From assembly GCA_029879665.1 (NCBI GenBank), contig JAOUPW010000010.1:1-13194 (forward strand): a DNA stretch of 13,194 nucleotides, read 5' to 3'. The translations under genes were made by a program, and so were the position numbers. Source of the stretch: Rhodospirillales bacterium (GTDB lineage Bacteria; Pseudomonadota; Alphaproteobacteria; Rhodospirillales; JAOUPW01). A model generated the notes under the pieces. The model ran no database searches, was not told where the DNA came from, and saw only the letters and a program-made list of their open reading frames with translations. Of this stretch, positions 4,327 to 6,099 are shown in pieces. Numbering within the stretch: position 1 is the stretch's first letter; each line of letters begins with the position of its first letter.

Positions 4327-6099
4327 TCAATCTTCGAGCAGGGCAGAGACCATGTCGGTCATGGAAAGGATGCCGATGGGCACTTCCCGCTCTCCCTGTT
4401 TCTGCGTCACCACCAGACGGTGGATGCGGCGTTTCATCATGGTGCTGATGGCCGCCGACAGCAGCGCGTTCTCATCGACGGTGGTGCAGCCGTGGCTCAT
4501 GACCTCGCCGACCTTGACGCGGCGGGCCTCGGTCTTGGTCCGGCCCTGGCGGGCGATGACAATATCGGTCATGGCGACCACGCCCACCGCCTCGTCGTCC
4601 TTGGCCACCACCACCGAGCGGAACTTGTTGTCGATCATCATCCGGGCCGCGAGTTCCAAATCCGTTTCCGGCGTGCACGTGAAAACGCCGGGGTGCATTT
4701 CATCGCGCACGAGGGCGCCCTCTTCAACGAAGCTGAACGCTTCCTCGCCTTCGTCGGGCTGCACGTCCGGCAGCGGAAGCGGCAACGGTAGCGGATGCGG
4801 CGCGTCGCGATGGTCGTCGTCGGGCAGGCTGAGGGCGTCGAACGGCTTCGGCGGCGCCGCGCTTACCCCGGTTCCAAATTCGGGCGCACCCACCAGAATC
4901 GCCATGTTGCCGTGAGGGTGGCGGTTTTCCATCATGAGCTGATGGGAATCGGGCAACTCGTCGAAGGTAAAAGCCCTCGACATACAGGGATCGAGAGAAC
5001 CCTGCACCGCCAGTTCGTTCATGGCGTAGGACTGGACGTCATTGGCGAAGTGGGATCCCTGCATGCGTTTCTGGCGCATCCACAGATACCGCAGATCGAC
5101 GGTGGCATTGTAACCGGTGGTGCCGGCGCAGATCACCACCGAACCGCCGGTCTCGCAGACGAACATGGAGGTGGGCATGGTGTCTTCGCCGGGATGCTCG
5201 AAAACGAAACTCGGGTTGCGCTTCTCACCCAGCACTTCCCAGATGGCGGCACCGAAGGAACGTACGCCCCTGAGCCAAATGCTGTAGCCCACATGGTCCT
5301 TCCAATGGGGCAGCATGCCCCAGTGTTTAAATTTCCTGCGGTTGATGCAACCGACGGCGCCCAGTTTCTTGCAGAAATCGATCTTGCTGTCGTCGGAAAT
5401 AACGGCGATCGGCTTGGCACCGGCGGCGCTCGCGATCTGGATGGCCATGGAGCCGAGACCGCCGGCGCCGCCCCAGATCAGAACCACGTCATCCTTTTTG
5501 ATTTCGTGCTCCGGCCAGCCATGCAGCATCCGGTAGGCGGTGGCGCCGACCAGCGAATAGGCGGCAGCCGCTTCCCAGGTCAGATGCTTGGGCTTGGGCA
5601 TGCACTGATGGGCCTGCACGCGGGTGAACTGGGCGAAGCTGCCGTAATTGGTTTCGTAGCCCCAGATCCTGAAGGTGGGCGAGTACATGGGATCAATTCC
5701 CGCTTGGACCTGGGGACAGGATGAATCCCAGGTGCCGCAGTGTATTACCACTTCGTCACCGACCTTGACGTTGCTGACCTTGGCGCCGATGGCATAGACG
5801 ATGCCCGACGCATCCGAACCGCCGATGTGAAAATCCTCTGGCTCGCCTTTCTTGTTGCGCGCGGCGATGACGTTGATCGGCGCGCCCATCGCGGCCCAGA
5901 CATTGTTATAGTTGACACCCGCCGCCATTACGTAAACCAGGACGTCCTCGTCGCCGATGGCGGGAACGTCGATCACCTCGCGCTGGAACGAGTCCTTGGG
6001 TTCCCCGAAACGCTCCGCCCGGACGGTCCAGGCATGCATGGTCTTCGGCACGTCGCCCAAGGGCGGCGCTTCTCCGACGGCGTAGAGTTCTTTACTCAC
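4327..6099 (-). CDS. ccr: Crotonyl-CoA carboxylase/reductase with a C-terminal CBS-domain pair
   Basis: The signature enzyme of the EMC pathway: reductive carboxylation of crotonyl-CoA with NADPH and CO2 to (2S)-ethylmalonyl-CoA. Residues 1 to about 405 form a full medium-chain dehydrogenase/reductase enzyme. They include VMAAGVNYNNVWAAMG (57-72), which contains the asparagine that I believe is part of the CO2 pocket. They also include WGYETNYGSFAQF (146-158), the NADPH-fold glycine motif WGGAGGLGSMA (209-219), FVFEHPGEDTMPTSMF (298-313) and GSHFAN (348-353), whose histidine probably matches the CO2-binding His. Usual Ccr proteins end near residue 430. This one continues through an acidic, proline-rich linker (about 406-460, with PLPLPLPLP at 436-444) into two CBS motifs, at about 463-517 and 530-590. 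These carry the nucleotide-binding signatures GVVAMTD (506-512) and GILSMTD (576-582). The start is GTG with GGAGGG six bases upstream. It overlaps the stop of a five-codon mini-ORF. First gene of the ccr-mcd operon, divergent from ecm. Confidence 0.96.
   Translation of the reverse strand: MSKELYAVGEAPPLGDVPKTMHAWTVRAERFGEPKDSFQREVIDVPAIGDEDVLVYVMAAGVNYNNVWAAMGAPINVIAARNKKGEPEDFHIGGSDASGIVYAIGAKVSNVKVGDEVVIHCGTWDSSCPQVQAGIDPMYSPTFRIWGYETNYGSFAQFTRVQAHQCMPKPKHLTWEAAAAYSLVGATAYRMLHGWPEHEIKKDDVVLIWGGAGGLGSMAIQIASAAGAKPIAVISDDSKIDFCKKLGAVGCINRRKFKHWGMLPHWKDHVGYSIWLRGVRSFGAAIWEVLGEKRNPSFVFEHPGEDTMPTSMFVCETGGSVVICAGTTGYNATVDLRYLWMRQKRMQGSHFANDVQSYAMNELAVQGSLDPCMSRAFTFDELPDSHQLMMENRHPHGNMAILVGAPEFGTGVSAAPPKPFDALSLPDDDHRDAPHPLPLPLPLPDVQPDEGEEAFSFVEEGALVRDEMHPGVFTCTPETDLELAARMMIDNKFRSVVVAKDDEAVGVVAMTDIVIARQGRTKTEARRVKVGEVMSHGCTTVDENALLSAAISTMMKRRIHRLVVTQKQGEREVPIGILSMTDMVSALLED
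4768..4800 (-). repeat. Hexanucleotide repeat encoding the Leu-Pro linker of Ccr
   Basis: Inside ccr, a degenerate six-base unit (GGNNGC as read on the plus strand) is repeated about five times and encodes alternating Pro-Leu residues (PLPLPLPLP, 436-444 of the protein). It lies between the carboxylase/reductase part and the CBS pair. It probably forms an extended, poorly ordered spacer, and as a short tandem repeat it could vary in length between strains. Confidence 0.6.

Follow-up and report, generated by a model that had tools for sequence, protein, structure and literature searches.

Enoyl-CoA carboxylases/reductases have found use in synthetic CO2 cycles. Their CO2 fixation has been described as the fastest (PMC12632816). 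The closest described systems to the protein considered here are the crotonyl-CoA carboxylase/reductases (Ccr, TIGR01751) of Kitasatospora setae (6na3/6owe) and Methylorubrum extorquens (4gi2), together with AntE (4y0k) and 9kva, with which it shares the core, the active-site residues and the pathway neighbours. The solved chains have 410–467 residues, whereas the present protein, encoded within a 13,194-nucleotide stretch of Rhodospirillales DNA (the window), adds about 180 residues in the form of a linker and a CBS-domain pair. For the K. setae enzyme, N81, F170, E171 and H365 have been named as the CO2-binding residues, and open and closed subunit states have been described (PMC10966969).

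Among enzymes that carry a Bateman module, the CBS-pyrophosphatases are likewise oligomeric and have the same ribose-phosphate motif, given for CBS domains as G-h-h-S/T-x-x-D/N (PMC11172384), and they may be regarded as the best functional analogue of the tailed Ccrs. However, they belong to another enzyme family, and in their case binding and effect have been measured (PMC11172384), whereas for the tailed Ccrs both are predicted from sequence. The Bateman modules of AMPK gamma, MJ1225 and IMPDH have other partner proteins and are homologues of the Ccr tail at the profile level (E values of 2.9e-13 for AMPK gamma-1, 4.3e-22 for MJ1225 and 2.5e-13 for IMPDH). A related CBS tail, 31–39% identical, is found on a different enzyme of carbon metabolism, the pyruvate:ferredoxin oxidoreductase gamma-alpha proteins P0132–P0137. 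These proteins, at least one of which is from Chloroflexi, have the only non-Ccr tails among 22 tail-search matches.

A preliminary description of the window had known of no characterised Ccr with such a tail. In agreement with this, the open-licence PMC literature yielded no paper reporting Ccr with a CBS tail, and there was no tailed Ccr among 60 of 166 PDB matches, where the best-matching part of every Ccr chain ends by residue 416. The CBS mention in PMC8556138 concerns AcuB, and those in a Clostridium proteome table (PMC5395762) and a Saccharolobus transcript table (PMC7820114) concern separate CBS-domain proteins. The ethylmalonyl-CoA pathway is discussed for Defluviicoccus (PMC9041414), Propionivibrio/Accumulibacter (PMC12604563) and Contendobacter (PMC8956781), and the main texts of these three papers, searched for CBS, contain no mention of it.

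The ccr-CBS gene is a single open frame with a GTG start that encodes 590 amino acids. It lies on the minus strand, the preliminary description having named no strand; read on the plus strand, these positions contain stops. The gene and its parts are as follows:

4327..6099, minus strand: ccr-CBS frame
4867..6099, minus strand: Ccr catalytic core, residues 1–411, defined by TIGR01751, the nearest solved chains and the active-site residues
4723..4866, minus strand: proline-rich linker, residues 412–459, disordered in the predicted model
4330..4722, minus strand: CBS pair (Bateman module), residues 460–590, two PF00571 domains
4564..4584, minus strand: CBS1 ribose-phosphate motif GVVAMTD, residues 506–512, atypical, with Ala at the Ser/Thr position
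4414..4425, minus strand: IHRL of CBS2, residues 559–562, with the H-R pair kept across tailed Ccrs
4354..4374, minus strand: CBS2 ribose-phosphate motif GILSMTD, residues 576–582, a full match

Pfam places ADH_N at residues 49–171, ADH_zinc_N at 214–355 and two CBS stretches thereafter (PF00571, together 72.8 bits; cut-off 24), and the NCBIfam equivalog TIGR01751 matches residues 17–413 over positions 4–397 of its 398 (550.9 bits, cut-off 378.55). The single frame and these matches bear out the uninterrupted run from Ccr through the linker into a CBS pair that had been read from the letters, and both motifs are present as they had been written. As to the ribose-phosphate signature, CBS2 has it complete, but CBS1 does not.

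The solved chains nearest to the core are 9kva, AntE 4y0k and M. extorquens Ccr 4gi2. When the K. setae numbering is carried over through 3hzz, a mapping that is our own reading, the CO2-binding residues correspond to N65, Y148, E149 and H350, all of which are present in the aligned window core and in each of 34 tailed rows. In the tail-less rows, N65, Y148 and H350 are kept in 34/34 and E149 in 27/34, with Q in the other seven. The change from the K. setae F170 to Y148 is common to tailed and tail-less rows. Judged by alignment, the protein has the CO2-binding residues of a Ccr, and by its full-length match to the equivalog it is a Ccr, predicted to form ethylmalonyl-CoA by reductively carboxylating crotonyl-CoA at the expense of CO2 and NADPH. 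Six positions are fixed differently between tailed and tail-less cores.

How widespread is the fusion? In a protein-database search, all of the 120 best homologues of 8000 scored had PF00571 together with both Ccr domains; those with a name at source are for the most part called crotonyl-CoA carboxylase/reductase, with no reference to CBS in any of the names. The recurrence of the same three Pfam domains in proteins from several source collections rules out a chance fusion or misassembly. The fusion claimed in the preliminary description is real, but it is not private to this genome: it marks a lineage that includes a form with two CBS pairs, which had been missed. At least 161 rows of tailed Ccrs were collected, representing 147 distinct proteins, and the two-pair form comprises 12 proteins of 756–785 amino acids. 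Separate genes in other assemblies of the same species had been proposed as a possible refutation. In loci L001–L116, many of which have short flanks, no Ccr was accompanied by a CBS partner encoded separately. Beyond the Ccr frames themselves, these loci gave one tail-like CBS match, L006, a separate 142-aa CBS frame on contig C188 of the window's own genome, and split neighbour genes were rejected as an explanation.

The tailed Ccr is uncommon among the Ccr-bearing genomes sampled. In the order sample, Ccr was found in 169 of 297 genomes (E 1e-80) and the tail in at least 18 of the 169, 17 of them with whole proteins and one (G120) on a partial contig; five of the 18 have a second Ccr match. 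The phylum sample gave Ccr in 61/398 genomes (E 1e-100), two of the 61 tailed, and the class sample a match in 12/385 (E 1e-160), four of the 12 tailed; the genome of the window is counted in all three samples, and G017 appears more than once. Most of the lower-ranked among 80 tblastn loci align only to about residue 409, i.e., they are tail-less. Tailed Ccrs occur in Alpha-, Beta- and Gammaproteobacteria and in Chloroflexota, the last resting on protein matches of which one is named (P0120, a Caldilineales MAG). Carriers include Rhodospirillales MAGs, Defluviicoccus (with the complete chromosome of SSA4), Ca. Propionivibrio aalborgensis, Chromatiales and other Gammaproteobacteria. One genome has tandem tailed ccr genes, L155 and L164 (G981:C50:37926-39689 and 39871-41640), whose products are 61% and 60% identical to the window protein. 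A Propionivibrio tailed Ccr (L091:7638-9746, with a tblastn span extending to 10437) is in two overlapping frames, perhaps through a small assembly indel.

The history of the tail was followed on a tree of the Ccr core with 68 rows, thinned by identity from 259 (IQ-TREE in quick mode, LG+G4, SH-aLRT only, midpoint root). Twelve partial Ccr frames, including the tailed L029, L091, P0121, P0123 and P0129, had been removed beforehand, and L154, L155 and L164 were left out of the motif, tree and context counts. Mapping the tailed Ccr on such a tree had been suggested in the preliminary description; the 34 tailed rows, together with the tail-less L024, lie on one side of a branch with an SH-aLRT of 99 and form one lineage. 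Two changes of tail presence are needed on this tree, interpreted as a single gain and a single loss. The neighbouring tail-less group consists of 12 rows with records from Chloroflexota, Binatota, Myxococcota and Actinomycetota, and the window core is 58–71% identical to these and about 53–58% identical to the common alphaproteobacterial Ccr. Since the tail-less sisters are from other phyla and the common alphaproteobacterial Ccrs are distant, the tailed Ccr is likely to have entered the Rhodospirillales by horizontal transfer. When the CBS pairs themselves are placed on a tree, those in the N-terminal position of double forms group together (99/98), and a further split (100/96) sets the double pairs, the oxidoreductase tails and the single tail P0130 apart from the 28 other single tails.

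What is kept in the tail? For 133 distinct single-pair tails, the ribose-phosphate motif was scored as complete when its G, S/T and D/N positions agreed. By this measure it is complete in 132 of them for CBS1 and 128 for CBS2, and among the 12 double-form proteins each of the four CBS units retains G, S and D. Only the window's own protein departs in CBS1, with A509 where the other 132 have Ser; this (4564-4584) may be a real change or an assembly error. The five CBS2 exceptions are L022, L023 and the window's nearest relatives, P0002, P0003 and P0004. The H-R pair of CBS2, which may have a phosphate-binding role as in AMPK-type modules, is similarly conserved (H560 in 132/133, R561 in 127/133), and a stricter pattern that also requires [VIM]HRL in CBS2 is matched by 118/133. 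Motif position 6 is Thr in both units (T511 in 133/133, T581 in 129/133). The window's CBS1 departs from the norm of tailed Ccrs by S509A, H494R and A495S, R494 being found in 9/133 and S495 in 5/133 single-pair tails. Two cysteines are also conserved in single tails (Cys475 in 127/133, Cys538 in 125/133, the latter missing in the double forms) and might constitute a redox switch.

In a predicted monomer model, the tail adopts a well-predicted CBS-pair fold, while pLDDT falls below 50 in the linker at residues 420–457. The distance from core to tail varies from 42 to 60 residues among the tailed rows. One could imagine the CBS pair serving to oligomerise the Ccr subunits or to dock Ccr to other pathway enzymes, in which case a ligand would play a structural part or none. 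Such a role would suit the linker, whose prolines 426, 436, 438 and 442 are each present in 92–97% of 109 aligned single-pair proteins, as well as the behaviour of CBS-pyrophosphatase, in which the CBS pairs of neighbouring subunits form a four-domain module (PMC11172384), and the reported state of Ccr as a tetramer, in one case a dimer (PMC10966969, PMC12632816). However, a near-invariant motif and an H-R pair, found in single and double forms alike, would be unexpected if mere dimerisation were at stake, and oligomerisation or docking as the main function appears unlikely.

The best-supported reading is instead a nucleotide-sensing role, since both ligand motifs are kept across the tailed Ccrs. 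Which ligand, then? Fold matches include nucleotide-bound AcuB and CBSX2, but the fold does not fix the ligand, since the matching CBS pairs have been solved with SAM/MTA, c-di-AMP and AMP/ADP/ATP. The tail could sense another adenine-containing compound (SAM, c-di-AMP, Ap4A, NAD(P)H or a CoA ester) in place of AMP, ADP or ATP, as the fold matches to DarB with c-di-AMP, MJ0100 with SAM/MTA and AcuB with Ap4A would allow. The Thr at motif position 6 speaks against SAM, in that Ile/Met are named at this position for SAM-binding CBS domains (PMC11172384), and nothing in the present analysis points to NADPH or to a CoA ester, both of which the preliminary description had put forward. Such an alternative ligand seems rather improbable.

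Selection on the tail was estimated by the NG86 method in 10 locus pairs, with synonymous sites near saturation in the gammaproteobacterial pairs. Omega was 0.025–0.194 for the core, 0.052–0.303 for the tail and 0–0.57 for the linker; the tail exceeded the core in nine of the 10 pairs, and it is under purifying selection. Mean identity to the window among 108 relatives is 76% in the core, 35% in the linker and 49% in the tail. The tail is nevertheless dispensable over evolution: in L021–L023 the motif of CBS2 is broken and H-R is replaced by H-H, and the nearby L024 has no tail, which suggests erosion before loss in this subclade. Could the tail in the window's lineage likewise be a decaying, functionless leftover? 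Its CBS1 is atypical, and omega against L037 is 0.303 for the tail (0.570 for the linker) versus 0.115 for the core, and other members of the tailed lineage have eroded or lost theirs. But these omega values are well below 1, the CBS2 motif is intact and the fold is well predicted, making decay a very remote prospect.

The genes around ccr in the window, named from family and context, fit the pathway to which the enzyme would belong:

2691..4295, minus strand: probable mcd, (2S)-methylsuccinyl-CoA dehydrogenase; N-terminally extended, with acyl-CoA dehydrogenase domains; 31 bp downstream of ccr
6280..8316, plus strand: probable ecm, ethylmalonyl-CoA mutase; MM_CoA_mutase and B12-binding domains, divergent from ccr
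8316..9425, plus strand: probable mch, mesaconyl-CoA hydratase; PF19315 MC_hydratase, 73.4 bits (cut-off 26.5)
9422..10474, plus strand: probable mcl, malyl/methylmalyl-CoA lyase; PF03328 HpcH_HpaI, 90.5 bits

The Pfam matches of all four genes, read together with their context, point to an ethylmalonyl-CoA pathway cluster around the fusion. Two differing FMN-dependent (lactate dehydrogenase-type) genes, at 1385-2557 and 10669-11781, flank the cluster, and a gentisate dioxygenase-like cupin gene lies at 11849-12934. Elsewhere, 33 tailed loci, which reduce to 24 distinct proteins with nine genomes seen twice, were examined for context. In 16 of the 24, mcd and/or ecm is beside the tailed ccr; in the other eight neither was found nearby, and when the window's genes were compared by BLAST with the wider regions of seven of these (all but L043), no neighbour from the pathway turned up. 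Five of the eight are in genomes with a second Ccr (G017, G160, G166, G197 and G218). From these counts, the tailed Ccr is usually a pathway enzyme, sometimes an orphan and often a paralogue. L149 (G218) and L152 (G197) are from genomes of 1.3–1.4 Mb and 97% completeness with two Ccr genes each, the tailed one apart from the pathway genes and, in L149, near IspDF, HflX and DNA polymerase genes.

The window's own genome (662 contigs, completeness 82.71, contamination 5.88) yielded no second Ccr in a genome search, the six other matches being five MDR-type stretches of 26–34% identity and the separate CBS frame. No isocitrate lyase was found in it, where eight of 14 control genomes were positive, an absence that carries little weight in an incomplete MAG. 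With one Ccr found and no isocitrate lyase detected in this incomplete MAG, the tailed Ccr is a plausible control point.

Taken together, it is probable that the Bateman tail binds an adenine nucleotide and tunes Ccr in the ethylmalonyl-CoA pathway to the energy state of the cell. The C-terminal module is situated on a flexible linker behind the pathway core, and two subunits would bring their CBS pairs together into a four-CBS disc within the Ccr oligomer; a chain of the two-pair form has all four CBS units by itself. An adenine nucleotide, most likely AMP, ADP or ATP, would be bound through the residues of G-h-h-S-x-T-D and I-H-R-L and would shift the open and closed states of the subunits, in either direction, so that the entry of acetyl units into the pathway would follow the energy state. 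Counted for such a sensor are the domains, the motif conservation, the Thr at position 6, the purifying selection on the tail, the fold and profile matches, the pathway neighbours in 16/24 loci and the sole Ccr found in the window's genome; counted against it are the fold matches solved with SAM/MTA and c-di-AMP, the three departures in the window's CBS1, the dispensability of the tail over evolution, its higher omega in 9/10 pairs and the 8/24 loci without a pathway gene.

A broader proposal is more tentative: tailed Ccrs may be reductive carboxylases gated by energy charge, coupling CO2 fixation and NADPH use to the energy state, notably in polymer-storing feast/famine bacteria such as Defluviicoccus and Propionivibrio, with the Caldilineales-type forms carrying a complete four-CBS sensor in each chain. 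If true, this would be a natural energy-gated carboxylase, regulation of the ethylmalonyl-CoA pathway would become directly testable, and there would be a bearing on redox balance in glycogen-accumulating sludge bacteria. The tail suggests that the CO2-fixing step of acetate assimilation may be switched directly by the energy state.
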